Below the pieces are notes generated by a model. That model saw only the letters and a list, made by a program, of their open reading frames with translations, had not been told where the DNA came from and did not search any database. Both the position numbers and the translations under genes were made by a program. A stretch of DNA of 64,000 bases from Aggregatibacter kilianii (GTDB lineage: Bacteria; Pseudomonadota; Gammaproteobacteria; Enterobacterales; Pasteurellaceae): NCBI RefSeq assembly GCF_003130255.1, contig NZ_NRCN01000001.1, positions 1,420,501 to 1,484,500 of the forward strand. Direction: 5' to 3'. Of the stretch, positions 8,640 through 29,641 are shown in pieces. Within the stretch, counting starts at the first letter, position 1, and the number at the start of each line of letters is the position of its first letter.

Positions 8640-9248
8640 ATGAGTATTTATGAACTGAAACCCAAATTCCAAAATTTGTTGCGTCCGTTCGCGATAAAAT
8701 TGGAAGCGCGCGGTGTGACCGCCAACCAGGTGACCTTAGCCGCTTGTGCGATTTCTGTCATTTTAGGACTAATTTTGACCGCACTTTCCGACTATGAGTG
8801 GCTTTTTATTCTGATTCCTATCTGGTTGTTCGTGCGTATGGCACTTAATGCTATTGATGGTATGTTGGCGCGTGAATTTAACCAACAATCCCGTTTGGGC
8901 GGATATTTAAATGAAATTACCGATGTAGTATCCGATGCCGCATTATACCTACCTTTTGCTTTTGTCTATCCTTTTGATGGTTTGCAAATCGGCTTGATCA
9001 TTTGGTTATCGGCGTTAACGGAATTTTGTGGCGTACTTGGGCAAGTTCAAGGCAAAACCCGCCGTTATGACGGCCCATTGGGCAAAAGCGATCGGGCGTT
9101 TTTGTTCGGCGTGTTGGGCTTAGTTTATGTTTTTGCCCCAACGTTACTTGATTTTCTCTATTGGGTGGCTTGGGCTATGGTGATTTTGTTAATTATCACG
9201 TGTATAAAACGCGTGAGGTCCGGTTTGGCAGAAGTCGGCAACGAATAG
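8640..9248 (+). CDS. ynbA: YnbA-type CDP-alcohol phosphatidyltransferase
   Basis: This is an integral membrane enzyme of the CDP-alcohol phosphatidyltransferase family, expected to swap CMP on a CDP-lipid for an alcohol. The 202 aa have about five or six membrane spans. The family signature is present but altered. The usual D-x2-D-G-x2-A-R-x8-G-x3-D-x3-D reads N-x2-D-G-x2-A-R-x8-G-x3-N-x3-D, with NAIDGMLAR followed by GGYLNEITD. From memory, E. coli YnbA shows the same two Asn replacements, so this is probably a clade trait and not decay. The KSDRA block and overall length also match YnbA. It lies 10 bp before a PlsC-like gene and upstream of a YnbB-like gene. The lipid acceptor is unknown. 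Confidence 0.82.
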   Translation: MSIYELKPKFQNLLRPFAIKLEARGVTANQVTLAACAISVILGLILTALSDYEWLFILIPIWLFVRMALNAIDGMLAREFNQQSRLGGYLNEITDVVSDAALYLPFAFVYPFDGLQIGLIIWLSALTEFCGVLGQVQGKTRRYDGPLGKSDRAFLFGVLGLVYVFAPTLLDFLYWVAWAMVILLIITCIKRVRSGLAEVGNE

Positions 9249-9258
9249 GAACGCAACC

Positions 9259-9891
9259 ATGTTAGCCAAATTGATTGATTTTCTTTTGTGCCGTTTTACC
9301 TCCTTCATCACCGGCGTCCGTCCGCAAAAAAATGTGGAACAGCAATCGGCGGATAAACATCGTTTGTATTTTGCCAACCATAACAGCCACGGCGATTTTA
9401 TTTTGTTGTGGGTATCTTTGCCTTACCTGGTACGCAAAAGCACCCGTCCGGTTGCCGGTGCGGATTATTGGGCGAAGGGGCCGATTCGTCGTTTCTTAGC
9501 ATACAAAGTGTTCAATATGTTGTTGATTGAGCGGGGCGGTGATAACCCGCAAGCCATTACCAAACAAATTAGTGATGCCTTGCAACATCATTCTCTGATT
9601 ATTTTCCCTGAAGGCACCCGTAAAATGGACGATGATGTGCCACTACAACCTTTCAAAAGCGGTTTGTATTACGTAGCAAAGCAAAACCCGCAATTAGAAC
9701 TTGTGCCGGTATGGATTAGCAACATGCATAATGTTTTGCCGAAGGGCTTTGTGGTGCCGATTCCGCTGTTGTGCGATTTATATATGGGAGAGCCGTTATT
9801 CTATCGTGAAGAGGAAGATAAGGCCGATTTCTTAATCCGTGCCGAACAGGCATTATTAAGTTTAAATTTAACCGAGAAAGGAAAAGCATAA
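9259..9891 (+). CDS. PlsC-like lysophospholipid acyltransferase family protein
   Basis: This is a 210-aa member of the 1-acyl-glycerol-3-phosphate acyltransferase family, which moves an acyl chain to a lysolipid or similar acceptor. The catalytic H-x4-D motif is NHNSHGD (about residues 38-44) and the phosphate-binding EGTR motif is in FPEGTRK. A VPVWISN block corresponds to motif IV. It overlaps the following YnbB-like gene by one base (TAATG), so the two are probably coupled. Position between YnbA- and YnbB-like genes suggests that it supplies or remodels lipid for them, not general phosphatidic acid synthesis; that is inference. Confidence 0.85.
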   Translation: MLAKLIDFLLCRFTSFITGVRPQKNVEQQSADKHRLYFANHNSHGDFILLWVSLPYLVRKSTRPVAGADYWAKGPIRRFLAYKVFNMLLIERGGDNPQAITKQISDALQHHSLIIFPEGTRKMDDDVPLQPFKSGLYYVAKQNPQLELVPVWISNMHNVLPKGFVVPIPLLCDLYMGEPLFYREEEDKADFLIRAEQALLSLNLTEKGKA

Positions 9892-10820
9892 TGGAAATAT
9901 GGCAGCTGTTTGGTGGTTTAATTATCACCTTAATTATCGCGTCATCAATCGGTTATGGATTGAAATTCAAAGTCGGCTTTTCCACACCTCATGCGGTAAT
10001 TGATAATCTTAACGCGCGAATTAACGCGTGGTGGGTGATGATTTTAATTATCTTCGCCGCCGCCGCGTTGGGGTTTTACGGCGTGATCGGGTTATTTTTT
10101 GTGATTTCCTTCATGGCATTGCGTGAATTTTTATCATTGCTTTATATTCGCCGTGGCGATCATTTAGCTCTTGCCGCGTGTTTTTACGTCATCCTGCCTA
10201 TTCAATACATTTTAGTAGCGATCGACTGGTTCAGTATGTTCACCATCTTCATTCCGGTGTATGGCTTCCTGTTTTTGCCAATCCTCTCCGCCTTGTTGGG
10301 CGATACGGCGCATTTCTTAGATCGTTCCACCAAAGTGCAATGGGCATTGATGATCAGCGTCTTCTGTATTTCCCACATCCCGGCAATCCTGACATTGGAT
10401 ATTGAAGGTTTTGAAGATAAAAAACTGCTATTGATGATTTTCTTGATTTTAGTGGTGCAATCCAGTGATGTGTTGCAATACGTATGGGGCAAGTTGTTCG
10501 GCAAACACAAAATTGCGCCAAAACTCTCGCCATCCAAAACCGTAGAAGGTTTTGTGGGCGGTGTCGTCAGCGCCAGTGTGCTGGGTGGCTTGCTCTATTG
10601 GCTTACCCCGTTTAACCCGGTTCAAGCGGTGTTAATGAGCTTATTAATCTGCCTCATGGGCTTTTTAGGCGGGTTGGTGATGTCTGCTATGAAACGGAGT
10701 ATGGGCGTAAAAGACTGGGGGAATATGATTAGTGGCCACGGTGGTATGTTAGATCGTATGGATTCTCTTTGCTTCGCCGCGCCGATTTTCTTCCATGTTG
10801 TCAGATATTATTGGACCTAG
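9891..10820 (+). CDS. ynbB: YnbB-type phosphatidate cytidylyltransferase (CdsA family)
   Basis: This is a 309-aa polytopic membrane protein of the CdsA family, which makes CDP-diacylglycerol from CTP and phosphatidic acid. The C-terminal signature is clear: KLSPSKTVEG, then GHGGMLDRMDSL with the metal-binding Asp residues. Length and overall pattern resemble E. coli YnbB more than housekeeping CdsA. Start and stop overlap tightly with the PlsC-like gene. Together with YnbA it forms a CDP-lipid producer and user pair. Confidence 0.85.
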   Translation: MEIWQLFGGLIITLIIASSIGYGLKFKVGFSTPHAVIDNLNARINAWWVMILIIFAAAALGFYGVIGLFFVISFMALREFLSLLYIRRGDHLALAACFYVILPIQYILVAIDWFSMFTIFIPVYGFLFLPILSALLGDTAHFLDRSTKVQWALMISVFCISHIPAILTLDIEGFEDKKLLLMIFLILVVQSSDVLQYVWGKLFGKHKIAPKLSPSKTVEGFVGGVVSASVLGGLLYWLTPFNPVQAVLMSLLICLMGFLGGLVMSAMKRSMGVKDWGNMISGHGGMLDRMDSLCFAAPIFFHVVRYYWT

Positions 10821-10894
10821 GGCTACTGTTACGATAACGACTCCGGGTCAAATTGAATTGTTTATTCGCAAACCTTAAAAAAACGAGAGAAAAA

Positions 10895-11476
10895 ATGACC
10901 GCACTTTTAAAGATTGGTTTGGTGTCCGTTTCTGATCGGGCATCGCAAGGGGTTTATCCGGATCAAGGCATTCCGGAATTAAAAAATTGGTTGGAACAGG
11001 CGTTAGTGGATCTATTTGAGGTGGTAGAGCGCCTGATTCCGGACGAGCAAGCGGAAATCAAGCGGACGCTATGCGAGTTGGTGGATGAGGAACATTGCCA
11101 TTTAGTGCTCACTACCGGCGGTACCGGGCCGGCAAAGCGGGATGTTACGCCAGATGCAACACTTGCTGTCGCTGATCGTGAAATGCCGGGATTCGGCGAG
11201 CAAATGCGTCAAGTTAGTTTGCATTTTGTACCGACCGCTATTCTTTCCCGTCAAGTAGGCGTGATTCGCAAAGAAAGTTTGATTTTAAATTTACCGGGGC
11301 AACCGAAAGCCATCAAGGAGACGTTGGAAGGAGTGAAAGATGAAAACGGCAACGTGTTGGTGAAGGGGATTTTCAGTGCCGTGCCGTATTGTTTGCAACT
11401 CATTAACGGGTTATATATCGACACCAAACCGGAAATCATTGCCAGTTTTCGTCCGAAATCTGCGCGCCGCAGTTAA
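10895..11476 (+). CDS. mog: Molybdopterin adenylyltransferase Mog
   Basis: Mog adenylylates molybdopterin so that molybdate can be inserted to form molybdenum cofactor. The 193 aa begin LLKIGLVSVSDRAS and contain the MoaB/Mog motif TTGGTGPAKRDVTPDA. The long stretch around DREMPGFGEQMRQ is close to E. coli Mog. The ATG at 10895 follows ACGAGAGA; the upstream in-frame start at 10853 adds a basic tail foreign to the family. Faces ybhA across a bidirectional terminator. Confidence 0.95.
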   Translation: MTALLKIGLVSVSDRASQGVYPDQGIPELKNWLEQALVDLFEVVERLIPDEQAEIKRTLCELVDEEHCHLVLTTGGTGPAKRDVTPDATLAVADREMPGFGEQMRQVSLHFVPTAILSRQVGVIRKESLILNLPGQPKAIKETLEGVKDENGNVLVKGIFSAVPYCLQLINGLYIDTKPEIIASFRPKSARRS

Positions 11477-11531
11477 ATGCAGAGAAAAGTGCGGTCATTT
11501 TTGACGGTATTTTTTACAAAGCATCAAAACG

Positions 11532-11570
11532 AAAACGGTATTCATTCACCATGACTGAATACCGTTTTTT
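11532..11570. terminator. Bidirectional terminator between mog and ybhA
   Basis: AAAACGGTATTCA (11532-11544) pairs with TGAATACCGTTTT (11556-11568) in a 13-bp stem with an 11-nt loop. A T-run follows on the plus strand and an A-run precedes it, so it can end both converging transcripts. Confidence 0.8.
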
Positions 11571-11574
11571 GATC

Positions 11575-12393
11575 TTAGCCAAGCATCTCTTCAATTAATC
11601 GGGCGATGCTATCGCTGTCGTTTGAGCCGATAACCCGTTTGGCCTGGTCTTTCACCGCCTCTTCCGCATTGCCCATGGCAACGCCGAGACCAACCGCGGT
11701 GAGCATACTGATGTCGTTGTGGTTATCGCCAAAAGCAATGACATTTTGTGGTTCAACATTCCATAGCTTCAGCAAATCAAGCAGACGCGCGCCTTTGCTG
11801 TTGCCGATATTGGCGACGTCTAAGCGATCAACCCAAGACCATTCGCAACTGAATTCTGAGTCAGGTAAGGCTCTGACTGCATTTTCCATGGCTTGTCGAT
11901 CGGGTGAGCTGATGACAAATTTCCAAATGTTCTCTTTGGGATTATCAATGATTTCTCTGAAATCAGTAACTAAACGCACGTTTGGGCGCACCTCAGGCCG
12001 GCAGTTCATCACCCATTGGGTGAATTTTTCCATGTGTGGATTTAAGCGGGTATAGTTCATCGCGTCACGGCTATACATGAGCAAATGAGTGTCGAATGTG
12101 TCTGCAATATCAATGACTTTATGGCATTGTTCGGAGGAAAGCGGATTGGCAAATTTCACTTCATCTGTTTGCGGATAATAGAGGTAAGTGCCGTTGCAAC
12201 AAATAATCGGCGTATCCAAATCCACTTCATGATAATAAGGTTTTACGGCAGTGTGGTGGCGTCCGGTGACGAAAACCACGTTGATACCCTGTTCCCGAGC
12301 CCGTTGAATAGCGCGTTTGCTGGCAGGGAGAATATTTCCTTGGCTGTTTAATAATGTGCCGTCGAGATCGAAAGCGATCACTTGATATGCCAT
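11575..12393 (-). CDS. ybhA: YbhA-type Cof HAD-IIB phosphatase
   Basis: This is a 272-aa cytosolic sugar/pyridoxal phosphatase of the HAD superfamily, Cof (IIB) subclass. Motif I is FDLDGTLLNS with the nucleophile Asp, motif II is VFVTGRHH, and motif IV is AFGDNHNDISML. The CCNGTYLY and CEWSW blocks resemble E. coli YbhA, a pyridoxal-phosphate phosphatase, more than YidA. Substrate preference cannot be proved from sequence. It is divergently oriented from glnB, with a USS-pair hairpin between them. Confidence 0.85.
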   Translation of the reverse strand: MAYQVIAFDLDGTLLNSQGNILPASKRAIQRAREQGINVVFVTGRHHTAVKPYYHEVDLDTPIICCNGTYLYYPQTDEVKFANPLSSEQCHKVIDIADTFDTHLLMYSRDAMNYTRLNPHMEKFTQWVMNCRPEVRPNVRLVTDFREIIDNPKENIWKFVISSPDRQAMENAVRALPDSEFSCEWSWVDRLDVANIGNSKGARLLDLLKLWNVEPQNVIAFGDNHNDISMLTAVGLGVAMGNAEEAVKDQAKRVIGSNDSDSIARLIEEMLG

Positions 12394-12442
12394 AAGATTT
12401 CCTTTGGGTTGAGCGTGATGGGAGAAAGTTGATGTTTTGTAG

Positions 12443-12943
<501 letters not shown>

Positions 12944-12946
12944 CTT

Positions 12947-14002
12947 ATGACAAAATCCTCTTCATTATTCAAAGGCTTGGTGGCTTTAGCTGCTATCGTC
13001 ATTATTTTGGCAGGCATTAAAGCCGCATCGGAAATTGCGGTGCCGTTTCTGTTGTCCTTATTTATCGCTATTATTTGTTCGCCGTTACTGAATTATTTAA
13101 CGTCGAAAAAAGTGCCCTATTGGTTAGCCATTACATCATTGTTATTGTTAATTTTGGTGATCTTTTCTTTCCTTTTCGGGTTAATTAACAGCACAATTCA
13201 AGAATTTAGCCAATCTATTCCGCAATATCGTCAATTATTGGCTGAACGGGTAAATAGCTTGGTAGGATTGGCGCAAGAGATGAAAACTCCATTAGATATT
13301 TCAGAAAAAAGCATTATGGATAATTTTGATCCAAGTGTGATCATGAATTTTGTTCGACGTGTATTTTTGAGTTTCTCCGGCGTGGTCACTAACACTTTCG
13401 TGTTATTGTTAGTGGTGATTTTTATGTTGTTAGAAGCACCTTATGCCAAACATAAATTTGTTGTGGCGTTTAGTGATGATCCGAATAATGTGGAGCAACA
13501 AGAACGTTATTTAGATCGTATTTTAAACGGCATTATGAGTTATCTTGGCGTCAAAACCATGATGAGCTTGCTGACAGCCATTTGTGTTTGGGTGCTGTTA
13601 GAAGTGGCGGGCGTGCAATATGCGATCTTGTGGGCAACGCTCAGTTTCTTGTTAAACTACATTCCAAATATCGGTTCCATTATTGCTGCTGTGCCGATCA
13701 TTGTGCAGGCATTATTACTGAACGGTTTTATTGTCGGCTTAGGCGTGTTGGTCGGTGTGGTGGTGATTAACGTTGGTATCGGTAGCGCCCTTGAACCTCG
13801 GGTAATGGGCAAAAAACTCGGTCTTTCCACTTTGGTGGTATTTTTGTCTTTATTGTTCTGGGGGTGGTTATTGGGCACTGTAGGGATGTTGCTTTCCGTG
13901 CCGTTAACCATGGCGTTGAAAATCGCTTTAGAAGCAAGCCCTACAACGGCAAAATATGCTGTGCTGTTGAGCGATTCATCAAGCCTTCCCTCTAATAAAT
14001 AA
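12947..14002 (+). CDS. AI-2E/PerM family transporter
   Basis: This is a 351-aa polytopic membrane protein of the AI-2E transporter (PerM/YdiK, UPF0118) family, with about seven or eight hydrophobic segments. Landmarks are the N-terminal SEIAVPFLLSLFIAIIC pair of helices, the central amphipathic region (about 80-150), and the C-terminal LNYIPNIGSIIA and EPRVMGKKLGLSTLVVF blocks. Members have been linked to autoinducer-2 or ion export; the substrate here is unknown. It starts 3 bp after glnB and is closed by an intrinsic terminator. Confidence 0.85.
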   Translation: MTKSSSLFKGLVALAAIVIILAGIKAASEIAVPFLLSLFIAIICSPLLNYLTSKKVPYWLAITSLLLLILVIFSFLFGLINSTIQEFSQSIPQYRQLLAERVNSLVGLAQEMKTPLDISEKSIMDNFDPSVIMNFVRRVFLSFSGVVTNTFVLLLVVIFMLLEAPYAKHKFVVAFSDDPNNVEQQERYLDRILNGIMSYLGVKTMMSLLTAICVWVLLEVAGVQYAILWATLSFLLNYIPNIGSIIAAVPIIVQALLLNGFIVGLGVLVGVVVINVGIGSALEPRVMGKKLGLSTLVVFLSLLFWGWLLGTVGMLLSVPLTMALKIALEASPTTAKYAVLLSDSSSLPSNK

Positions 14003-14010
14003 TGTGTTGT

Positions 14011-14038
14011 AAGAGCCTTCAATTGTAAGGCTCTTTTT
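14011..14038 (+). terminator. Intrinsic terminator after the PerM-like gene
   Basis: AAGAGCCTT and AAGGCTCTT form a 9-bp stem around a 7-nt loop, followed by five T. Confidence 0.8.
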
Positions 14039-14114
14039 CTTTATATCTCAATCTTATGCTATAATTCTGCAACTTTTTATCACCTTAATAGCAAATAACT
14101 TAAGGTTTTTATTT

Positions 14115-15161
14115 ATGAAAAAATTTTGTGTATTTATTTTATTTTTGATTGTCGTTTTAGCCGGCGCAGGATTTTGGGGATTTCAGCATTTACAACAATT
14201 CGTACAACAATCGGTGAATGTGCAAAACGATCAATTATTAACCATAGAACGTGGCACAACAGGCAATAAATTGGCTAGTTTGTTGGAAAAAGAACGTATT
14301 TTGGATAATGCCGCGCTGTTGCCTTGGTTGTTAAAATTACATCCCGAACTCAACAAAGTGAAGGCAGGAACCTATTCTCTTAACGGTGTAAAAACCGTGG
14401 AAGATTTACTGAAATTGCTGAATTCGGGCAAAGAAGCGCAATTTTCACTGACCTTCGTTGAAGGCGAAACCTTCAAAACTATAAGAAAACGTCTCGAAAA
14501 TGCACCGCACTTAAAACAAACTTTGCAGGGTAAGTCCAATGACGAGGTTTTTGGTCTGCTTGCTATGGGTACCAACCTTAATAAAAATTTAACTGAAAGC
14601 CATATTATTGACGGCTGGATTTACCCCGATACTTACAATTACACGCCGAACTCCACCGATTTAGATTTGTTGCAACGTTCGGTAGAACGTATGAAAAAAG
14701 CTTTGGATAAAGCATGGAGTGGACGGGATAAAAATCTACCGTTAGCCGATCCTTACGAAATGCTTATTTTGGCCTCGATTGTGGAAAAAGAATCGGGCGT
14801 GGCGGCAGAGCGACCACAAATTGCATCGGTGTTTATCAATCGCTTAAACGCCAAAATGAAATTGCAAACCGATCCTACGGTGATCTACGGCATGGGGGAT
14901 AATTACAACGGCAATATTCGCAAAAAAGATTTAGAAACGCCGACACCTTACAATACTTATATCATTGACGGTTTGCCGCGAACGCCTATTGCAATGCCAA
15001 GTGAAGAGGCCTTGCAGGCAGTAGCTCATCCGGCGCAAACGGAATTTTATTATTTTGTGGCGGACGGTTCGGGCGGCCATAAATTTAGTCGTAATCTCAA
15101 CGAACACAATAAAGCGGTACAAGATTATTTGCGCTGGTATCGTGAACAAAACAGGAAATAA
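14115..15161 (+). CDS. mltG: Endolytic murein transglycosylase MltG
   Basis: MltG is an inner-membrane lytic transglycosylase that cuts nascent glycan strands and sets their length. A signal anchor spans about residues 4-24. A LysM-like region follows and then the YceG catalytic domain, with the active-site Glu in [10 protein letters not shown]. The [10 protein letters not shown] and [18 protein letters not shown] motifs are present. The length of 348 aa is normal. A possible -10 box TATAAT lies at 14060-14065. The stop is 1 bp before the tmk start, as in the common mltG-tmk-holB order. Confidence 0.96.
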
Positions 15162-15162
15162 T

Positions 15163-15804
15163 ATGGTCGGCAAATTTATTGTTATCGAAGGCTTGGAAGG
15201 CGCGGGCAAATCCACTGCCCATCAATGTGTAGTGGATGTTTTGAAAGAATTGGGCATTGATGATGTGGTGCTTACCCGCGAGCCCGGCGGTACGCCTTTA
15301 GCAGAAAAATTGCGCCACCTCATTAAACATGAAATGGAAGAGCCGGTAACGGACAAAGCCGAATTATTAATGTTATATGCCGCCCGTATTCAGTTAGTCG
15401 AAAATGTCATTAAACCCGCCTTGGCTCAAGGCAAATGGGTGGTAGGTGATCGTCATGATATGTCTTCCCAAGCCTATCAAGGTGGTGGTCGCCAACTCGA
15501 ACAACGTTTGCTTCAAAGCCTTAAGGAAACCATTTTGGGCGGTTTTGAACCGGATTTAACGCTGTATTTGGATATTGATCCGGCTGTGGGGTTGGCTCGC
15601 GCCCGTGGTCGTGGTGAATTGGATCGTATCGAACAGCAAAACTTAGATTTTTTCCACCGCACTCGAGCACGTTATTTGGCGTTAGTGAAAGACAACCCCA
15701 AGGCAGTGATTATCAATGCAGAACAATCTGTTGAACAGGTTCAACAGGATATTAGGCAAGCATTGCGTCGGTTTGTTGAAAATGAATCATGGATGCAATC
15801 TTAG
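15163..15804 (+). CDS. tmk: Thymidylate kinase
   Basis: Tmk phosphorylates dTMP to dTDP. The 213 aa start [18 protein letters not shown]; the P-loop lies at about residues 10-18. The DR motif is in [18 protein letters not shown] and the lid carries [10 protein letters not shown]. The ATG at 15163 is chosen because the upstream in-frame codons overlap mltG. The 3' end overlaps the next small gene by 16 bp. Confidence 0.96.
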
Positions 15805-16286
15805 TTTTTTTCATCATAGCGTCTCTTACTGTATTTGTTTCATTGATTTGGAGTGGACTACACATTTTTAAAGGTGAAATCCTCTTACAACTTCCTATAC
15901 AGTCGCAACAAGTTACACTAACCATTCCCCAAAATGGCTTTTATGGTATTTGGATTAAAGGAAAGTTATTTAAAGCTAACCCGTTGCGTGGATATAGTAT
16001 AAAACTTATAGATGAACAAGGTAAAAGCCCAATAAATTTACATATCCTTGGCTATGCACGTAAAAATTCTTTTACTGAAAGCACAGTTCTTGAAAAGTCT
16101 TACTACCTTAAACAAGGTCAATATAAACTTGTGATGGCCAATCAAGATAAGTCGGTATTGGATCAACAAGTCGTAGATCAAGGAAATTTTATTATCAAAA
16201 AGACATTACCGCTTATGGTATTGTTGGGGGCCAATATGTTGTTAGCTGTTATTCTTTCTAAAATTTTAAGATTATTTATGAACTAG
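15789..16286 (+). CDS. Unknown membrane protein between tmk and holB
   Basis: I do not recognise this 165-aa protein. It has one hydrophobic helix at each end (about residues 4-24 and 140-163), with roughly 115 polar, probably beta-rich residues between them, which would face the periplasm. There is no signal cleavage site, Cys pair or catalytic motif that I can name. It overlaps tmk by 16 bp and ends 2 bp before holB, so it is translated as part of that operon. The region looks more AT-rich than its neighbours. In most related genomes I would expect tmk and holB to be adjacent, so this looks like an insertion. Confidence 0.7.
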
Positions 16287-16288
16287 AA

Positions 16289-21170: not shown

Positions 21171-21257
21171 ATCGTGATGAGGTAGAAGAATTGAAAAAGT
21201 GCGGTCGTTTTTCCAAGCATTTTTTCTTGCTTTTCAAAAAATGTTGAATTTTCTTTC

Positions 21258-21283: not shown

Positions 21284-21327
21284 AATATGAAAACAATCTC
21301 CAAATCTACCGCACTTTTATACACAGA

Positions 21328-21813: not shown

Positions 21814-21852
21814 TTATTTTCCTAATTTATTTAACAAGTTAAAGTTCGGTTA

Positions 21853-22317
21853 CTATACCACAGGTTTTTCCCGATAGAACAGTAAGCCGGGTAATGCCAA
21901 GCCGAAAACTAACGCGCCGAGAATAAAGGTGGTGTTGATAAAGGAGGCGATCATTTGTTCAAATAAAGCATCGGAGAAGCCGTAATGGTGAATTTGTACG
22001 ATGGCGATCATCGCTTTGTATGCCTGTACGCCCGGAATCATAGGGATAATGGCGGCAACAGTAAACACTTTTGGGTGTGCCAGATAACGATGAGATAAAT
22101 GCACGCCGATAAAACCGATTAATGCGGCACCCACCAAGGTGGCGAAGACAATAGGAATATCGCAATGAATGAGAATGGTGCGGGTAACGTGTCCTAGGGC
22201 GCCGAGTAGGGCGCAATATTTTAACGCTTTCGGCGGCACATTAAACACCAAGGCGAAACCCACTGCCGGAATCGCGGCAAAAAACATATCGTCCAATAAT
22301 AGAAGTAACCAATTCAT
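21853..22317 (-). CDS. yjjB: YjjB-type ThrE_2 domain membrane protein
   Basis: This 154-aa protein with four or five membrane helices is the small half of a split ThrE (threonine/serine exporter-like) transporter. E. coli YjjB works with YjjP in succinate export. The PGVQAYKAM block is typical of the ThrE C-terminal half. It begins 1 bp after the yjjP stop, so the two are co-translated and likely form one complex. The substrate here is inferred from family only. Confidence 0.85.
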   Translation of the reverse strand: MNWLLLLLDDMFFAAIPAVGFALVFNVPPKALKYCALLGALGHVTRTILIHCDIPIVFATLVGAALIGFIGVHLSHRYLAHPKVFTVAAIIPMIPGVQAYKAMIAIVQIHHYGFSDALFEQMIASFINTTFILGALVFGLALPGLLFYREKPVV

Positions 22318-22318
22318 C

Positions 22319-23104
22319 TTAGTTCCCCCAAGTGGTGATGTTGAGTACGCTTAAGGCGAAGACAATGCCGAGGCAAGCGCCGAAAGTGAGAATGGTGGCG
22401 ATTGCCCAACGACCGATTCCCATGTTCACATAACCTTTTAAAATATCCGCCAGAGAATTGATTAACGGAAAGCCGGGCACCAGCAATAACACGCTGGAAG
22501 CTAAGGCAATTTGCGGATCATTACCGAGCTGATATTTCAAGCTGACACCGGCAAGAAGGGAGGCAACGAAAGAGGTCACGGCAAAGACGATGACCGGATT
22601 ATAGTGCCGTTTAGACAATTCCTGACGCACGAACATGGCAATGGATGCTGCTATGAAGGTGATGAGCGAAATCAGTGCATCGCCGCCCGATAAATGGGCA
22701 AAAGAGGCGCAGGATAAGCCAATCATCAAGAGCACAAAATAACGGTTATATTTTAATGGTTTGAGTTGTGCAAGTTTCTTTCTGACCATGTGCAGGTTGT
22801 ATATTTTATGTTCAGCAGAAATCACGATGCGTTGAACGTCCGTCACCATTTGCATATTAATGCCTTTGTCGGTGTTTTTGCGGGCGGTGGTAATACAATG
22901 ATCGTTTGCCAATGTGGTAATAATGACGGCGTTGGCAGTGAGGGCGCATTCTACGCTTTCTACACCTAATGCCAAGCCTAGTCGTTGTGTCATTTGCGCC
23001 ACGATAGTGCTTTCCGCGCCATGTTGCAGTAATAACAGTGCCGTTTGCACGCATAACCGCGTGACTTCCCGTTGATCTTCGGGCGTGATGTTTTCCTTTT
23101 TCAT
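22319..23104 (-). CDS. yjjP: YjjP-type ThrE N-domain membrane protein
   Basis: This 261-aa protein is the large half of the split ThrE transporter. A soluble N-terminal stretch (about 1-110, with LLLQHGAESTIVAQMTQRLG) precedes five hydrophobic helices (about 118-258). The LLVPGFPLINSLADILKG block matches the ThrE family. Paired with yjjB. The upstream region shared with proB (divergent, 164 bp) holds one uptake signal. Confidence 0.87.
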   Translation of the reverse strand: MKKENITPEDQREVTRLCVQTALLLLQHGAESTIVAQMTQRLGLALGVESVECALTANAVIITTLANDHCITTARKNTDKGINMQMVTDVQRIVISAEHKIYNLHMVRKKLAQLKPLKYNRYFVLLMIGLSCASFAHLSGGDALISLITFIAASIAMFVRQELSKRHYNPVIVFAVTSFVASLLAGVSLKYQLGNDPQIALASSVLLLVPGFPLINSLADILKGYVNMGIGRWAIATILTFGACLGIVFALSVLNITTWGN

Positions 23105-23268
23105 AATGAATCTACCTAAAATTAATTAGTGTCATTATAGACCTTTCTCATGGAACAAAAAAACGCTTAATCAAATACCTCCGAAATAGGCTTAAAAGTG
23201 CGGTCTGATTTTTGGATAAATTTTGGGATTTATGCTAATTTAAACGCATTTTTCGATGAGGAGTCAGT

Positions 23269-24375
23269 ATGCAACATCATAATAAAACTATTGTAGTGAA
23301 ATTTGGCACCAGCACATTAACCCAAGGTTCCCCAAAATTGAATTTGGCTTATATGATGGAAATTGTGCGTCAACTTGCGCAATTACATCAAGCCGGTTTT
23401 CGCTTGGTGATCGTCACCTCGGGCGCTATTGCGGCAGGGCGTCATTATTTGAATCATCCGCAATTGCCACCAACAGTGGCCTCTAAGCAATTATTGGCGG
23501 CAGTAGGGCAGAGCCAGCTAATCCAAACCTGGGAAAAATTATTTGCGATTTATGACATTCACATCGGACAGATGTTGCTAACCCGCGCCGATATTGAAGA
23601 TCGCGAACGTTTTTTGAATGCCCGCGATACATTACAGGCGCTGTTAGACAATCAGATTATTCCGGTCATCAATGAAAATGACGCGGTGGCAACGGCGGAA
23701 ATTAAAGTCGGGGATAACGATAATTTATCGGCGTTGGTGGCGATTTTAGTGCAAGCAGAACAGCTTTATTTGCTCACGGATCAACAAGGGTTATTTGACA
23801 GCGACCCGCGTAAAAACCCGCAAGCGAAATTAATTCCCGTGGTGGATAAAATCACCGATCATATTCGTTCTATTGCCGGTGGTAGCGGGACGAATTTAGG
23901 CACAGGCGGAATGTCCACCAAAATTACGGCTGCGGATGTCGCGACCCGCTCCGGTATTGAAACCATTATTGCACCGGGCAACCAAGCCAATGTGATTGTG
24001 GATTTAGCGTATGAGCAGGCGATTGGTACGAAATTCACCGTGCAGGCGGATCGTCTGGAAAGTCGTAAACAGTGGTTATTTGCGGCACCATCGGCCGGGG
24101 TGTTGGTGGTGGATGACGGCGCCGAAAGTGCGGTGTTAATTCAGCATAAATCCTTATTGCCGGCAGGTATCGTCGAAGTCAGCGGACGTTTCTCCCGTGG
24201 TGAAGTGGTGCGTATTCGCACGCGATCAGGCAAGGATATTGCGCTGGGTATGCCACGTTATAATAGCGATGCGTTAGAGCTTATCAAAGGTAAACATTCG
24301 CAAGATATCGAACACATTTTAGGCTATGAGTATGGTGCGGTGGCGGTGCATCGTGATGATATGATTGTGTTGTAA
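23269..24375 (+). CDS. proB: Glutamate 5-kinase
   Basis: ProB phosphorylates glutamate, the first step of proline synthesis, and is feedback-inhibited by proline. The 368 aa hold an amino acid kinase domain (about 8-250) with [31 protein letters not shown] and GTGGMSTKI, and a C-terminal PUA domain (about 277-350). proA is not adjacent in this window. The ATG follows GAGGAG. A 10-bp terminator lies directly after it. Confidence 0.96.
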
Positions 24376-24393
24376 TAACCTCAAAAGAAACAA

Positions 24394-24426
24394 AAAACGG
24401 CGTTTGATGACGCCGTTTTTTTTTAT
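24394..24426. terminator. Bidirectional terminator between proB and fklB
   Basis: AAAACGGCGT (24394-24403) and ACGCCGTTTT (24410-24419) form a 10-bp stem with a 6-nt loop, with A-run before and T-run after. It serves both converging genes. Confidence 0.85.
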
Positions 24427-24439
24427 GGGTAAATGTCAA

Positions 24440-25072
24440 TTAAAGAATATCCAATAATTCCACTTCGAATACTAATGGGCTGAATGGCGGAATTGCTGCA
24501 CCGGCGCCACGTTCGCCATAGGCCAATTCATGTGGAATAGCCAAGCGCCATTTGGAACCGACAGGCATCATGGAAAGGGCTTCAATCCAACCTTTGATCA
24601 CGCCGTTAACCGGAAATTCAGCCGGTTGACCACGAGCGACAGAACTATCAAATACGGTGCCGTCAGGTAATGTGCCGGTGTAATGAACGCGTACGGTGTC
24701 GGTAGCGGATGGTACGTTGCCGTTGCCTTCAACCAACACTTCATATTGCAAGCCGGAATCCGTCACTTTCACGCCGTCTTTTTGTTTGTTCGCCTCTAAG
24801 AAGGCTTTGCCGGCGGCGTCGATTTCTTTAAATTGTGCTTTTTGCGCTTCATCCGCTTGTTGTTGTAACTGTTGTAACGCATGGCTGATTTCATTGAAAT
24901 CTAAGGCTGGCGCTTGTTGGTTTAAGACATCATAAATGCCTTTTGCTACGGCTTCTGCTTTCACTGCCAAGTGGCTGTCCAATAATTGTTGGCCGATTTG
25001 CAAACCGATACCGTAACTGCCTTTGGCTTCGGTATCGTCTAATTTCACTTGACTGAAGAATTCTGCTGTCAT
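24440..25072 (-). CDS. fklB: FKBP-type peptidyl-prolyl isomerase FklB
   Basis: This is a 210-aa proline isomerase. An N-terminal dimerisation domain (about 1-90) precedes the FKBP domain (about 105-205), with [27 protein letters not shown] and [26 protein letters not shown]. The start at 25072 (MTAEFFSQV) fits the family length and has GGAAAACAACATG upstream. The longer frame into psd is rejected. No signal peptide is present, so it is cytosolic, like E. coli FklB. It lies 25 bp downstream of psd. Confidence 0.93.
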
Positions 25073-25097
25073 GTTGTTTTCCTTTTTGTTGATAAAA

Positions 25098-25967
25098 CTA
25101 TTTAATGGTGGCGAGGATTTCACCCATTCTTACCGGTACTTCTACCTGCAAATGTTCCGCTAATTTCACACTATCGGCAGGAAATAGATTAATAACCGTT
25201 GAACCTAGTTGAAAGGCGCCCATTTCTTGACCTTTGCGTAATTCGATTGCGCTGTCGCCTTGATATGTCCACACTTTGACTTCTCTAGAGCGCGGCGGAT
25301 TAATGATACCCGCCCAGACAGTGCTCATGCTGGCTGTAATGGTGGCACCGACTAAAATTTGCACCATCGGGCCGAAGTCCGTATCAAATACACAAATCAC
25401 CCGTTCATTACGGGCAAATAAATTCGGCACATGTTCTGCTAAAAACGGATTGACCGAGAATAAATCCCCCGGCACATAAAGCATTTTACGCAGGGTGGCA
25501 TCGCACGGCATGTGGACACGGTGATAATCGCGCGGGGATAAATAAATCGTGGCGAATTCCCCGTTTCTAAAGGTATTGACTAATTCTTCATCACCCGCCA
25601 ATAAATCGGATAGGCTGAAAAAATGCCCTTTGGCTTGTAATAATAGATCGTCGTCAATATGGCCGATTTGGCTCACACGACCATCGGCCGGTAAGCAAAG
25701 TGCGGTCGGATTTTCATTTATTTTTCGCGCGTCTTCTTTTAGCTCTCGAATAAAAAATTGATTGAAACTTTTGTAGTCGCTGAAGTGTTCTTTTTGGGCT
25801 TCGCTCATGTCCACGTTGTATTTCTTCGCAAAAAGTTGGATCGCAAAATGTGTTATCGAGCCCCATTCTTGCTTAGCAAACCAGCCCGCCAGTTGGGTTA
25901 AATATAGTTGCGGCATAACATATTGAAAAGCAACTTTTAGACGTTGCCAATAGGTGAATTTATTCAT
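25098..25967 (-). CDS. psd: Phosphatidylserine decarboxylase proenzyme
   Basis: Psd converts phosphatidylserine to phosphatidylethanolamine at the inner membrane. The 289-aa proenzyme cleaves itself at the LGST motif ([11 protein letters not shown]), where Ser becomes the pyruvoyl group of the alpha chain. The Asp-His pair [11 protein letters not shown] of the self-processing triad is present. It is divergent from the ynbC-like gene across a 243-bp spacer, so a phospholipid head-group gene sits beside the second half of the Ynb-type lipid set. Confidence 0.96.
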
Positions 25968-26210
25968 AATGGTTATTTTTTCTACAAGATTAAATGAATG
26001 AGGGGTGATTATAACAACTTATTTAGCTTGTGCAATGACGAGCACTTTTGTGTATTTGGTGTCGCTGGAGAGAAAATTTTCCGATTTTGTGACACATCCG
26101 ACAGAAATGAATTGCATTTGCAATGTTTGATCATGGTGATGTTGAGTATAATCGAGGGAAAAAATATGCCAAATTTCTACCGCACTTTTAACCTAAAGAA
26201 GGAAGCCAAT

Positions 26211-27950
26211 ATGGAACAAGAAAAATATTTTCGTAGTGCCGATGACACCGAACTTTTTTATCGTTATCGCCCGGCAAAAGATGCTAGTTGTAATAAGGCG
26301 ATTGTGTTGTTTCATCGCGGGCATGAACATTCAGGACGCATGATGTTTGTAGCTGAGGAACTGGGTTTTGACGATTTTGCTTATTTTGCTTGGGATGCAC
26401 GCGGGCATGGTTTAAGCCCGGGCGAACGCGGTGATAGCCCGAGTTTGGGCACCTCCGTTGCCGATATTCAGGCATTTATGCAGCATATTGAACGGGAGTA
26501 TGGCATCAAGGCGGAAAATATCTGCGTGATCGCGCAAAGTGTCGGTGCAGTGTTGGTTTCTGCTTGGCTACATGATTATGCGCCCAAAATCCGTTGCGCG
26601 GTATTAGCGTCACCTGCTTTTAAAGTGAAACTTTATGTCCCTTTTGCCCGCGCAGGGTTAAAGCTGATGTATCGTCTGCGTGGCAATTTCTTTGTGAACA
26701 GCTATGTGAAAGCCCATTACCTTACCCACAATAAAGCCCGTCAAGAAAGTTACAATAACGATAAACTCATTGCTCGTGCTATTTCTGTGCGTATTTTGCT
26801 TGGTTTATATGAGGCAGCGGATCGTGTGGTGGCGGACGCTCAGGCGATTACAGTACCAATTCAGCTGTTCATTTCGGGCAGTGACTGGGTCGTACATCAT
26901 AAGCCACAGCATGATTTTTATAATCATCTAGGCAGTCATATTAAAGAACGTCATATTTTTAACGGTTTTTATCACGATACATTAGGCGAGGAAAATCGAG
27001 AAGTGGCGTTTAAAGAAATGCGCCGTTTTATTCGTCAGCGTTTTGCCGAACCGTTACAACGGGTAGATATTACCCAGGCGCATATTCATAGTGCCAGCCG
27101 TATTGAGGCCGATGAGCTGGCAACGCCGCTTTCTCCTTTTAGCCCTCGCGGTGCATTTTGGGCCGCTTATCGTCGATTGATGAAACTTGGTGCAAACTGG
27201 AGCGAAGGCCTGAAAATCGGCAAAGAAACCGGTTACGATTCCGGCAGCACGCTGGATTATGTATATCGTAACCAACCACAAGGAACCAATAAATTTGGTG
27301 TGTTAGTGGATAAAAATTATTTGAATGCTATTGGTTGGCGCGGTATTCGTCAGCGTAAGGTGAACATTGGCAAGGCGATTCAACTGGCGATGGAAAAATT
27401 ACGCACAGCAGACAAACCCGTACATGTGCTGGATATTGCCTCTGGCCATGGGCGCTATGTGCTCGATGCGTTAACAACCGACAGGCTGCCTGATTCCGTG
27501 CGGTTACGGGATTACAGCCCGATTAACGTGGAAGCAGGGCGTAAGCTAATTGAAGAGCGTCAGTTGCAGGATGTGGTGACCTTTGAACAAGTCAACGCCT
27601 ATGATCGCAATAATTACCAAAACCTTGATCCCCGCCCGACACTGGGGATTGTATCCGGTTTACATGAACTATTTGCCGACAACGATTTGATTATGAATTC
27701 CTTATATGGCTTTGGCGATGCTATTGAAGAGGGCGGTTATCTAATTTATACCGGACAACCGTGGCATCCGCAGCTGGAGCTCATTGCCCGTTGTTTAACC
27801 AGTCATAAAGAGGGTAATCCGGAGTGGGTAATGCGTCGTCGCAGTCAGCAGGAAATGGATCAGTTAGTGGAAAAAGCGGGTTTTGAGAAAATCCATCAAT
27901 GGATTGATGAAGACGGCATTTTTACCGTGAGTTTGGCATTAAAAAAATAG
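26211..27950 (+). CDS. ynbC: YnbC-type alpha/beta hydrolase-methyltransferase fusion
   Basis: This is a 579-aa two-domain enzyme. The N-terminal alpha/beta hydrolase (about 15-290) has the oxyanion strand VLFHRGHEHSGR, WDARGHGLSPGERG, and the nucleophile elbow AQSVGA with Ser110; the first Gly of the usual GxSxG is Ala. The C-terminal part (about 385-579) is an S-adenosylmethionine methyltransferase with motif I DIASGHGR at 408-415. Length and domain order match E. coli YnbC. The ATG at 26211 follows AAGAAGGAAG; the frame stays open to 25998 but that part is not family-like. ynbD starts one base after its stop. The substrate is unknown; a lipid or lipid head group is likely from context. Confidence 0.85.
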   Translation: MEQEKYFRSADDTELFYRYRPAKDASCNKAIVLFHRGHEHSGRMMFVAEELGFDDFAYFAWDARGHGLSPGERGDSPSLGTSVADIQAFMQHIEREYGIKAENICVIAQSVGAVLVSAWLHDYAPKIRCAVLASPAFKVKLYVPFARAGLKLMYRLRGNFFVNSYVKAHYLTHNKARQESYNNDKLIARAISVRILLGLYEAADRVVADAQAITVPIQLFISGSDWVVHHKPQHDFYNHLGSHIKERHIFNGFYHDTLGEENREVAFKEMRRFIRQRFAEPLQRVDITQAHIHSASRIEADELATPLSPFSPRGAFWAAYRRLMKLGANWSEGLKIGKETGYDSGSTLDYVYRNQPQGTNKFGVLVDKNYLNAIGWRGIRQRKVNIGKAIQLAMEKLRTADKPVHVLDIASGHGRYVLDALTTDRLPDSVRLRDYSPINVEAGRKLIEERQLQDVVTFEQVNAYDRNNYQNLDPRPTLGIVSGLHELFADNDLIMNSLYGFGDAIEEGGYLIYTGQPWHPQLELIARCLTSHKEGNPEWVMRRRSQQEMDQLVEKAGFEKIHQWIDEDGIFTVSLALKK

Positions 27951-27951
27951 T

Positions 27952-29247
27952 ATGCCTATGAAAAAAGCGGTGTCGCATCGTCTCGGTTATTTAATCTCTG
28001 TAGGTGTGCTGTTCTACGCAACTTACGGCTTCAGTAATTGGTTTAGTGCACAACAGGAGAATGTGGCGGAGATTGTCTTTGCTTGGGAAGAACATATTCC
28101 TTTTCTTGCATGGACAATCGTACCTTATTGGTCGCTCAATGCCATGTATGCGTTGGCGTTCTTTTTGGCTCGTGACAAGCGGGAATTACGACGTTATGTG
28201 GCACAATTATTATTGGCTCAGTTGATTGCCATCTGTTGTTTTCTTCTATTTCCGCTGCAATTTAGTTGGCAAAAACCACTTGCAGACGGGGTTTCAGCGC
28301 TGTTATTCGATTCCCTGGCGGCTTTTGATCAACCTTATAACCAAGCGCCGTCGTTACATATTATTCTGACGATCATTGTTGGTTCATTTTATTGGCGTTA
28401 TTTACCGAAAATCTGGCGTTTGCCTTTAATTATTTGGCTTGGATTAATTGCGTTATCCGTATTGACGACTTACCAACATCATTTTATTGATATCCCTACC
28501 GGTGTTCTGGTGGGCTGTTTGATTCTATGGGCGTTGCCTTATGAAGGAGCAAGTCCGTTACATGGTACAAGAGCCGATAGATTTCGTCTTAAGCTCATGC
28601 GATATTACTTAGCGGGCGCACTCATTTTCTTCCTGCCGATTTTTCTTGGCGGGGCGTATCTTTGGTTTATTTGGATTAGCATTGCATTGTTGCTGGTGGC
28701 ATATGCTTATCTATGGTCAGGGGCAAAGTTATTTCAAAAACAACAGAACGGCAGACATAGCATGGCGGCCACCCTATTGCTTTTGCCCTATCTGTTAGGT
28801 GTGAGACTGAATATTTTTTATTGGTTACGACATCAAGCGAAAGTGTCGGAAGTGTTACCTGGAGTGTTTATCGGTAGTGTCACGCAGGCGGCAAACTTTG
28901 AGGCCGTGTTAGACCTGTGTGCCGAATATCCTTGTATAAATCCGCCCAAGGATTATGTTTTCATACCAATGTTGGATATGGTTCCCCCCGAATCTACCGA
29001 GCTTGTGCGGACGGCGCAGGAAATGCAACGTTTGTACAATAACCACCAATCAGTATTTATCTGTTGTGCTTTGGGTTATGGGCGCAGTGCCGCTGCGATG
29101 CTGGTTTGGTTGGCAGTTTATGGAGGTTGTGATAATTTAACCGAAGCCCAACGACAGCTACGTGTTGCGCGTCCCAATATGATATTGCCCGCAGCTACGG
29201 AACAAAAAGTGTTGGAGGCGATCTATCTCTTGCAAAAAACGCGATAA
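27952..29247 (+). CDS. ynbD: YnbD-type PAP2/dual-specificity phosphatase membrane protein
   Basis: This is a 431-aa inner-membrane protein with two phosphatase modules. The N-terminal membrane half (about 1-270) carries PAP2-like motifs: PSLHI at 133-137 and H176-x3-D180 in TTYQHHFIDIPTG. The cytosolic C-terminal half (about 290-425) is a dual-specificity/PTP-type domain with Cys372-x5-Arg378 (CALGYGR). The His usually before that Cys is Cys here. Length and layout match E. coli YnbD (about 430 aa). It could dephosphorylate a lipid phosphate made by the YnbA/YnbB branch; that is inference. Confidence 0.83.
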   Translation: MPMKKAVSHRLGYLISVGVLFYATYGFSNWFSAQQENVAEIVFAWEEHIPFLAWTIVPYWSLNAMYALAFFLARDKRELRRYVAQLLLAQLIAICCFLLFPLQFSWQKPLADGVSALLFDSLAAFDQPYNQAPSLHIILTIIVGSFYWRYLPKIWRLPLIIWLGLIALSVLTTYQHHFIDIPTGVLVGCLILWALPYEGASPLHGTRADRFRLKLMRYYLAGALIFFLPIFLGGAYLWFIWISIALLLVAYAYLWSGAKLFQKQQNGRHSMAATLLLLPYLLGVRLNIFYWLRHQAKVSEVLPGVFIGSVTQAANFEAVLDLCAEYPCINPPKDYVFIPMLDMVPPESTELVRTAQEMQRLYNNHQSVFICCALGYGRSAAAMLVWLAVYGGCDNLTEAQRQLRVARPNMILPAATEQKVLEAIYLLQKTR

Positions 29248-29275
29248 AAACTGACCGCACTTTTAGGAGGAAATT

Positions 29276-29641
29276 ATGTCTGCACAAGCCCGTTTAACCT
29301 CTCATTTGCTTGCTACGGCACGTTACATCGGTGTATTGAATCTCGTGGTGTTTGCGTTGTCTTTCCGCCCTGATTCAGGCTTCTTCTGTTTACAGATTTT
29401 ACTTTGCGCGGCCTTACTCTATTTACATATTCGGATTTATTTTGATCAAATGCTATTTAGCGATTTGGCACATCAGCACATTACTACGGAAGAATTAGAT
29501 AAGGCACTTGGTGTGTTAAAACTGAAAATGCCACAAGGCGACCGTAATATTGCCGAACGCGTGCAAGGTGCTTTAAGGTTGTGGAAGTATGTTTTATACG
29601 GTACAGGAATACAGTTATTGTTACTTTTTTTAGCGAGTTGA
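29276..29641 (+). CDS. Small membrane protein downstream of ynbD
   Basis: I do not recognise this 121-aa protein. It has three likely membrane segments (about 15-33, 36-55 and 103-120), with a charged stretch (about 62-98) holding TTEELDKALGVLKLKMPQ. It has a strong AGGAGG ribosome binding site, 28 bp after ynbD, so it is probably co-expressed with ynbCD. An uptake signal lies in the gap. No catalytic motif is seen. Confidence 0.7.
   Translation: MSAQARLTSHLLATARYIGVLNLVVFALSFRPDSGFFCLQILLCAALLYLHIRIYFDQMLFSDLAHQHITTEELDKALGVLKLKMPQGDRNIAERVQGALRLWKYVLYGTGIQLLLLFLAS

Follow-up and report, generated by a model that had tools for sequence, protein, structure and literature searches.

Two separate clusters in a Pasteurellaceae genome encode all six proteins of a proposed arc1/ynb phospholipid pathway, in modules of apparently different ancestry

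The window, meaning the whole stretch of 64,000 nucleotides analysed here, encodes in two clusters homologues of all six protein types of antagonism resistance cluster 1 (arc1A-F, PA2541-PA2536) of Pseudomonas aeruginosa. Taken together, these clusters seem to make up, at a probability of about 0.6, the arc1/ynb phospholipid pathway, composed of a core and an accessory module of different ancestry and having a role such as that of Arc1. The first cluster, A-P-B (8640-10820), consists of ynbA, an arc1A-type CDP-alcohol phosphotransferase (A, 8640..9248, 202 aa, Pfam PF01066 CDP-OH_P_transf), a PlsC-type acyltransferase (P, 9259..9891, 210 aa, PF01553 Acyltransferase) and ynbB, a second CdsA-type cytidylyltransferase (B, 9891..10820, 309 aa, PF01148 CTP_transf_1). 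The second, C-D-S (26211-29641), consists of ynbC, which combines an alpha/beta-hydrolase with a SAM methyltransferase (C, 26211..27950, 579 aa, PF12146 Hydrolase_4 and PF12147 Methyltransf_20), ynbD, which has PAP2_3 membrane phosphatase/transferase and DSP-type phosphatase domains (D, 27952..29247, 431 aa, PF14378 and a DSPc match under the Pfam cut-off), and a small membrane protein (S, 29276..29641, 121 aa), which matched no Pfam family and is identified by BLASTP to its P. aeruginosa counterpart. All six genes lie on the + strand and are intact, with open reading frames; the longest frame of ynbC begins at 25998, and 26211 was taken as the gene start. The clusters are separated by about 15.4 kb, in agreement with the distance of about 15 kb given in the first-pass annotation. 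The window contains 61 copies of AAGTGCGGT, presumably the Haemophilus-type uptake sequence of the Pasteurellaceae, against 0.51 expected, which supports the assignment of the genome to this family.

The Pfam domains and the conserved active-site motifs of PlsC, YnbB, YnbC and YnbD bear out the ynbABCD protein types assigned in that annotation. The protein sets compared omit a frame-split A (G047) and a fragment of D (G039). The PlsC motif H(x)4D is present in all 36 sequences and FPEGTR in 35 of them, the remaining one having Ser for Thr. The probable triad of YnbC, S110-D225-H255, is kept in 26, 27 and 27 of 27 sequences, respectively, and residues H136, H177, D180, D342, C372 and R378 of YnbD are found in 23/23; a literature search on PF12147 found no papers. 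YnbB has K268, R269, K274, D275, H283, D288, R289 and D291 in all 41 sequences, residues that we take to form the CdsA signature. It shares this signature and the CTP_transf_1 family with a separate gene of the same genome (G000:C1:1417645-1418499, outside the window), presumed to be the housekeeping CdsA, but falls far short of the cut-off of the NCBIfam CdsA equivalog NF008635 (100.5 against 385 bits). YnbA likewise does not reach that of the PgsA equivalog TIGR00560 (20.7 against 109.1 bits). On these scores an ordinary PgsA or CdsA identity was rejected for the two proteins, and the profile search proposed in the first-pass annotation leaves both outside those families.

YnbB could alternatively be the centre of interest by itself, as a second CdsA that would act as a reserve CDP-DAG/GlcNAc-PP-DAG synthase in making the glycolipid MPIase, its neighbours having no product in common. 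Overproduction of E. coli YnbB raises MPIase (PMC6362211), and the enzyme, although it makes CDP-DAG in vitro, does not take the place of CdsA in the synthesis of phospholipids (PMC6362211, PMC7018664). The published link of E. coli YnbB is thus to MPIase and not to a YnbA product (PMC6362211), which counts against the pathway reading. However, deletion of ynbB in E. coli causes no significant change in MPIase (PMC6362211) and ynbB has been reported to be unnecessary for ECA-PG (PMC8609368). A function centred on MPIase, which we consider quite improbable, also leaves unexplained that B is found together with P in 17 of the 18 C/D-bearing Pasteurellaceae genomes, usually with A too, and that it occurs alongside C-D-S in several proteobacteria.

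The CDP-alcohol phosphotransferase signature is D1xxD2GxxAR...GxxxD3xxxD4 (PMC4634129). Its eight residues are not all present in YnbA, which still matches PF01066 despite having Asn at the first (D1) and third (D3) conserved Asp in 42/42 sequences (Asn70 and Asn91 in the window copy); the alignment also contains a second, degenerate copy of A from G021 (L115), which is not counted among these 42. The other six residues are present in the window copy, and the second Asp, the fourth Asp (the catalytic base) and both signature Gly are invariant in the same 42 sequences, while the signature Arg is present in 36. E. coli YnbA has the same Asn/Asn motif, which suggests that the active site is a distinctive one within this much-studied superfamily. 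In NCBIfam and PDB profile comparisons the proteins closest to YnbA are archaetidylinositol/PI-phosphate synthases rather than PgsA, although YnbA does not reach the cut-offs of the NCBIfam PIP synthase models NF045883 (49.5 against 170 bits) and NF040950 (71.8 against 180 bits). The best solved-structure relatives of its profile are PIP synthases (PDB 6h53, 6h5a and 5d91, E=1.5e-13; PMC4634129). These have Asp at D1 and D3, where YnbA has Asn, but both of their phosphate-binding Arg align with Arg152 and Arg191 (window numbering), which are kept in all 42 YnbA sequences. Because the two Asn and the two Arg are both universal in this set, the product of YnbA is probably, as judged from sequence, a phosphatidyl-X-phosphate in which X is unlikely to be inositol. 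As read from the alignment, the inositol-side Ser132 and Lys135 of M. tuberculosis PIP synthase are replaced by Gly/Gly in the window YnbA and by Gly/Ala in that of E. coli. Inositol-1-phosphate made in the cell was rejected as the acceptor on the lack of any match to inositol-1-phosphate synthase (PF07994) in 6/6 genomes.

The same data bear on two other interpretations of YnbA. One is an extra route to phosphatidylglycerol (PG), in which A uses glycerol-3-phosphate, a generally available metabolite, and A-P-B forms a second, inducible PG pathway with the DSP domain of YnbD, a DSP-type phosphatase that presumably could act like PTPMT1. Such a route is at odds with the proximity of YnbA to archaetidylinositol/PI-phosphate synthases and with its lack of two signature Asp residues, both of which are retained by the PgsA-like gene of this genome, and it does not readily account for the methyltransferase/hydrolase of C. 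It gains from the absence of inositol-1-phosphate synthase in the six genomes and from a published account in which four arc1 genes are linked to the synthesis of PG (PMC8926400), and we regard it as possible though rather doubtful. The other is that YnbA is non-catalytic and merely senses or binds CDP-DAG or the acceptor, with no phosphatidyl-X being made. With Asn at two of the three metal-ligand Asp in every sequence counted, YnbA could be inactive or act differently, which weighs against the pathway; yet a dead enzyme would not usually keep the second Asp, the catalytic-base Asp, both Gly and both phosphate-binding Arg invariant, and this interpretation appears unlikely. Deletion of arc1A has a phenotype (PMC8926400, PMC12663445), which fits a catalytic and a non-catalytic YnbA alike.

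In the preferred reading, that of a common phospholipid pathway, PlsC would acylate lysophosphatidate to phosphatidate, YnbB would convert phosphatidate to CDP-diacylglycerol and YnbA would transfer the phosphatidyl group onto a phosphorylated alcohol (X-phosphate) to yield phosphatidyl-X-phosphate. The DSP domain of YnbD would remove the outer phosphate, its PAP2_3 domain may handle the head group on the other membrane face, and YnbC may trim or methylate the product. As for Arc1, the envelope would be altered to withstand rival bacteria, including phospholipase damage. The analysis shows the identity of the genes, their homology to arc1A-F, the conservation of their active sites and their distribution as modules, and from these we infer every reaction step, as well as the role in the window organism.

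Among 140 Pasteurellaceae genomes, C and D are found in the same 18, all of which also carry A and B, which supports the co-occurrence that the first-pass annotation had proposed to survey. C and D are absent from 32 of the 50 A-bearing genomes and A-P-B must therefore act alone in some way. This distribution separates A-P-B as the core from C-D-S as the accessory part, and the order of the lipid intermediates can therefore be predicted. The order A-C-D-S-P-B on one strand is found in nine of the 18 C/D-bearing genomes, with S located between D and P in all nine. Three separate split arrangements (the window genus, G039 and G112/G113) retain A, C, P and B together with the whole or a part of D, the co-occurrence among split genomes thus representing three lineages only. 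The P of G112/G113 is only 33-34% identical; in G039, D is represented by no more than a fragment, and the aligned part of A contains one stop codon. Elsewhere in the window's class, P adjoins the set in four of nine other loci and was not found in the other five, one of which is a very short contig. YnbC matched 33 plasmid records, and the three examined have P and a small gene, annotated there merely as hypothetical, in the same cluster. The acyltransferase is consequently not the added gene and new clue it was first taken for, as P and S are already present in the P. aeruginosa cluster, nine genomes of the family and three plasmids. None of 395 genomes sampled from the family to which G412 belongs matched a primer pattern, the family being possibly wrong or the species unsampled.

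The earlier description of the pathway as split into two loci is correct as to the two places but understates the difference, since trees and AU tests suggest that the clusters are of different ancestries. These careful trees and tests were made with chosen subsets from which the most distant rows were excluded, the tree input excluding L089, L098, L115 and L129-L140. The window A-P-B falls outside the cluster-type A-P-B, with 100/100 support for both groups, and a tree constrained to join it with that of the two clusters nearest to the window by C-D-S has a log-likelihood lower by 66 (AU p 7.6e-4). The window B is 56-58% identical to three cluster copies that are 76-86% identical among themselves, whereas the window C is 83-88% identical to the same three clusters. 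Five other genera (g5, g8, g21, g25 and g35) include genomes that have the same A-P-B lineage but lack C and D. Evidence for different ancestry is strong in the A-P-B AU tests and weak in those of C-D-S (AU p 0.0365), D alone not being rejected (p 0.105). The presence of all six operon genes, the same split in five of nine members of the window's genus and the weakness of the C-D-S tests would suit a single operon broken by rearrangement in that genus, but the A-P-B results, the unequal identities of B and C and the A-P-B lineage of the five other genera make this very improbable, and it was rejected. Probably, the window clusters are not one operon broken in two, A-P-B being a lineage known without C and D and C-D-S resembling that of complete clusters; they seem to occupy two locations because the halves have different evolutionary histories. 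Tentatively, and with more doubt than confidence, it may be proposed that YnbA/Arc1A founds a CDP-alcohol phosphotransferase branch that has yet to be characterised, whose metal site is modified by Asn and whose members couple CDP-DAG to a phospho-alcohol that is neither glycerol-phosphate nor inositol-phosphate. The lipid from A-P-B, optionally remodelled by C-D-S, would then be an undescribed membrane lipid that blunts rival attack, and in this family the A-P-B of an incoming six-gene operon would have been lost because a resident A-P-B could stand in for it. If the resident A-P-B did replace the incoming one, the two modules would be exchangeable parts of one pathway.

A DASS/SLC13-like transporter with TrkA_C domains, assigned by Pfam (6754..8622, + strand), ends 17 bases upstream of A. 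Such a transporter stands beside A-P-B in 23 of 34 fetched loci, a set that includes the window but not the loci of G077, G078 and G080, and also in L085, from another family. It is a possible co-transcribed neighbour and at most a putative member of the pathway. Adjoining ynbC on the opposite strand is psd (25098-25967), as had been noted. This neighbourhood is probably incidental and was rejected as a functional clue, psd being directly followed by bioA in three of the four genus-mates without C-D-S and not being seen in the stretches fetched around the nine six-gene clusters. In two scans, promoter-like sites were at or below the shuffled mean (10 against 12.4 and 3 against 9.6), which gives no sign of regulation and counts against the pathway reading, and terminator-like sites numbered 11 against 5.2 and 9 against 7.6.

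E. coli K-12 ynbABCD and P. aeruginosa arc1A-F are the known systems closest to the window set. Homologues of all four E. coli proteins are present in the window, A and C by direct alignment (55% identity for YnbC) and B and D by BLASTP grouping with the window proteins. The E. coli genes are contiguous in the order A-B-C-D, as first annotated, an order that the window does not have, and their cluster lacks plsC and the small membrane protein, so it is probably a reduced arrangement. The literature searches, in which part of the matches were examined, found no paper linking ynbABCD to Arc1 and led nowhere on related operons; 'ynb' is absent from the main text of both Arc1 papers (PMC8926400, PMC12663445). 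The analysis ties the little-studied E. coli genes to the Pseudomonas defence cluster. The lipid product remains undescribed, as had been stated, although a phenotype has been published for the P. aeruginosa cluster (PMC8926400, PMC12663445) and enzymology for YnbB of E. coli (PMC6362211, PMC7018664). In P. aeruginosa, arc1A-F is under Gac/Rsm control and protects against the T6SS of B. thailandensis; no single effector tested, including the lipase Tle3, accounted for the arc1 defect, and just one arc1 gene passed the cut-off in Tle3 defence (PMC8926400). Arc1A contributes to lipase-effector resistance, for which an auxiliary role has been suggested (PMC12663445). The window proteins are 51% (A), 58% (C), 42% (D), 53% (P, over residues 33-202) and 64% (B) identical to those of P. 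aeruginosa PA7, and S matches the product of L144:6233-6682, at the same cluster position, with 32% identity over 73 aa (BLASTP E=5e-7). The arc1 genes of PA7 form a single contiguous cluster in the order A-C-D-S-P-B, whereas the same six protein types in the window are encoded in two distant clusters apparently of different ancestry; the window set is not contiguous and is therefore termed a split variant of the arc1 gene set rather than an arc1 operon.

The six genes lie in two clusters, and all six reading frames are open where the first-pass annotation had placed them. One cluster consists of ynbA (A, 8640-9248, Pfam CDP-OH_P_transf), a plsC-like gene (P, 9259-9891, Acyltransferase) and ynbB (B, 9891-10820, CTP_transf_1). 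The other consists of ynbC (C, 26211-27950, Hydrolase_4 and Methyltransf_20), ynbD (D, 27952-29247, PAP2_3 with a DSP match below the cut-off) and a gene for a small membrane protein of 121 residues without a Pfam family (S, 29276-29641). No NCBIfam model listed against the six proteins reached its cut-off, the PgsA, PssA, PIP-synthase and CdsA equivalogs being among those that fell short, which speaks against ordinary PgsA or CdsA proteins. The genome also carries a second CTP_transf_1 gene just beyond the window edge, presumed to be the housekeeping CdsA, and a separate PgsA-like gene. The observation of a YnbABCD-type lipid pathway split in two loci is correct and its reading partly right; the genes represent a known pathway in a variant made up of two modules. 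Directly upstream of A is a DASS-type transporter with TrkA_C domains (6754-8622), found in 23 of the 34 fetched Pasteurellaceae A-P-B loci (window counted); a transporter of this type with 36% identity stands upstream of A-C-P-B in L085, a locus from another family's genome. The transporter might supply the head group.

Among 140 Pasteurellaceae genomes, C (PF12147) and D (E <= 1e-10) occur in the same 18, A in 50 (E <= 1e-10; four by distant copies only, 25-33% identity) and B in 54 (E <= 1e-40). The proposed co-occurrence of the two clusters holds in one direction, all 18 C/D genomes having A and B, and the converse fails in 32 genomes with A and without C/D. In the fetched neighbourhoods, nine genomes (G046, G047, G055, G069, G079, G117, G123, G126 and G127) have A-C-D-S-P-B on one strand; about 2.2 kb separates C from D in G046 and G047, A is frame-split in G047, and S and D are partly repeated in G069. 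G098 has A-C-D-B, with P and S not found in the fetched neighbourhood. G039 has A (one stop codon in the match), C, a D fragment and S together with P-B elsewhere, and G112 and G113 have A-C-D with B-P elsewhere, P being only 33-34% identical. The other five, all of the window's genus (G000, the window's genome, and G015-G018), have A-P-B plus C-D-S; the remaining four genus members carry A-P-B but lack C/D. P adjoins B in 17 of the 18 C/D genomes; in the eighteenth, the look for P covered the fetched neighbourhood. Across the class, PF12147 was matched in 16 of 369 genomes drawn, 10 near complete (window's counted) and 6 partial or weak. One locus (L164, G009) carries P and B as a pair, next to which neither A nor C nor D was found, so P-B may form an even smaller unit. 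Another (L129, G076), where A and B fragments remain and P was not found, is an example of loss. A distant A subfamily (~24-33% identity; L126-L128, L139 and L165-L167) is likewise paired with P and B.

The two modules appear to differ in ancestry. In a concatenated A+P+B tree of 31 rows, the window falls within 19 A-P-B loci without adjacent C/D (support 100/100), and the A-P-B genes of nine family clusters holding C form a separate group (100/99); a wider quick A-P-B tree was rooted on two distant A-P-B rows. In the C-D-S tree, G055, G039, G046 and G047 join the window's genus (91/96), and seven other rows lie apart from them. G046 and G047 fell outside in the first quick C tree, so the nearest C-D-S relative is not fixed exactly. 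Forcing A-P-B into the C-tree arrangement was rejected (AU p 7.5e-7), as was holding it with G046 and G055 (p 7.6e-4). The converse constraint, uniting all cluster-type C-D-S to the exclusion of the window's genus, gave a weaker rejection for C+D+S (p 0.0365) and none for D alone (p 0.105); all these p values flatter because the groups were named after the trees were seen. Tree-free identities between the window and three clusters (L091, L093 and L099) give a similar picture. For C, window-cluster identity is 83-88% and cluster-cluster identity 82-83% (two of three pairs computed), and for D 54-60% and 53-58%. For P the values are 51-53% versus 65-77% and for B 56-58% versus 76-86%, with a smaller gap for A (61-65% versus 69-70%). 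The window's B is closer to that of P. aeruginosa than is B of L093 (64% versus 57%), while its A (50 and 49%) and P (48 and 48%) are not clearly nearer. In the simplest history, an ancestor already having A-P-B would have received, or retained, a six-gene operon whose own A-P-B was then lost.

Between psd and bioA, the window holds C-D-S and a bioC-like gene. The genus has four other members with C-D-S; there too C-D-S adjoins psd and a bioC-like gene comes next (only part of it found in G017), beyond which bioA was not found in the fetched stretches. In G014, G019 and G020, without C-D-S, bioA follows psd at a distance of 220-230 bases; in G021, also without C-D-S, the fetched stretch showed no bioA. 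Since G014 and the G019-G021 group fall in different halves of the genus in the A-P-B tree, one gain and two losses of C-D-S are suggested. Psd was not seen in the fetched stretches around the nine six-gene clusters, and therefore its adjacency to C-D-S, remarked on in the first-pass annotation, is probably incidental. The window's bioC-like gene is spread over two reading frames (29859-30164 and 30188-30619) and shares about 60% identity with the intact bioC at 34033-34809; read by eye, 30619-30962 appears to include a remnant resembling the gene at 35522-36046. The repeat AAGTGCGGT, presumably of the uptake-sequence type, has 61 copies in the window versus 0.51 expected. None lies within C, D or S; P and B likewise have none, so this absence says little.

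The conserved residues of the other enzymes are largely intact. All 23 YnbD sequences have PAP2-type His136, His177 and Asp180 along with DSP-type Cys372, Arg378 and Asp342, YnbC has Ser110 in 26 of 27 and Asp225 and His255 in all 27, and the PlsC and CdsA motifs are complete; the YnbD and YnbC residues would have the catalytic roles usual in their families. YnbA departs from its family. Excerpts of PMC4634129 describe the CDP-alcohol phosphotransferase signature, D1xxD2GxxAR...GxxxD3xxxD4, as eight residues under absolute conservation, of which D1-D3 bind metal and D4 is the probable base. In YnbA, Asn replaces D1 and D3 in 42 of 42 sequences; D2, D4, the two Gly and the Ala never vary, and the Arg is kept in 36. 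Asn/Asn is also found in the E. coli and P. aeruginosa copies, in two Rhizobiaceae plasmid copies and in the aligned distant A copies (L126-L128 and L139). All four Asp are kept in the PgsA-like genes of the window's genome and four others and in one further P. aeruginosa member; the search pattern gave no match in the last P. aeruginosa member. A second, diverged A copy (40% identity; L115 7540-8115, G021), upstream of mog, has lost the catalytic motif.

PIP synthases are the best solved-structure relatives of YnbA. The two Arg with which they bind the phosphate group of inositol phosphate correspond in the alignment to R152 and R191, which all 42 YnbA sequences keep, while the window YnbA reads Gly and Gly where the M. 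tuberculosis enzyme has Ser132 and Lys135. Because the phosphate-binding Arg are kept, Ser132/Lys135 are replaced and inositol-1-phosphate synthase had no match in six of six genomes searched, the acceptor predicted from sequence that fits best is a phosphorylated compound other than inositol phosphate. From family chemistry, the reactions would run PlsC, YnbB, YnbA, YnbD and YnbC. A published alternative ties YnbB to synthesis of the glycolipid MPIase (excerpts of PMC6362211 and PMC7018664); however, PMC6362211, in the part consulted, reports no significant MPIase change on E. coli ynbB deletion, and an excerpt of PMC8609368 reports ynbB to be unnecessary for ECA-PG.

The acyltransferase, previously regarded as added, is a normal though not universal member of the set, as it is present in P. 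aeruginosa PA7, in class loci and in plasmid records. P stands beside the set in four of nine other class loci with C (L081, L082, L085 and L087) and was not found in L083, L084, L086, L088 and L089, the last a 4.3-kb contig. Three of 33 matching records were looked at: Shinella and Rhizobium plasmids have C-D-S-P-B with A adjoining on the opposite strand, and an unverified Roseateles record has almost the layout of Shinella. All three records annotate the gene in the S position as hypothetical.

In E. coli MG1655 the genes are contiguous, as the first reading had it, in the order A-B-C-D, without P or S in the cluster. Among 5426 E. coli genomes, 5275 show a megablast match to this region, with coverage of 80% or more in 4234. 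The PA7 locus, found via the PA2541 primer sequence printed in PMC8926400, has the order A-C-D-S-P-B (L144, A 2406-3041, C 3131-4891, D 4891-6240, S 6233-6685, P 6697-7326, B 7328-8263). Window and PA7 proteins are 51% (A), 58% (C), 42% (D), 53% (P) and 64% (B) identical; for S the figure is 32% over 73 residues (E=5e-7). According to excerpts of PMC8926400, Ting et al. named PA2541-36 arc1A-F, required for surviving B. thailandensis T6SS attack; five of the six genes are described as phospholipid-related, and no single effector among those tested explains the defect. A 2025 CRISPRi study, in the part consulted, has arc1A adding to resistance against lipase effectors, with an apparently auxiliary role (PMC12663445). 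The string 'ynb' is absent from the main texts of both papers, and no paper linking ynb and arc1 is among the matches listed in literature searches on ynb genes. Three things seem to be new here: the mosaic ancestry, the identity of ynb with arc1, and the Asn/Asn active site in YnbA. Since the homologous arc1 cluster has a measured phenotype, an Arc1-like role may be inferred for the window genes.
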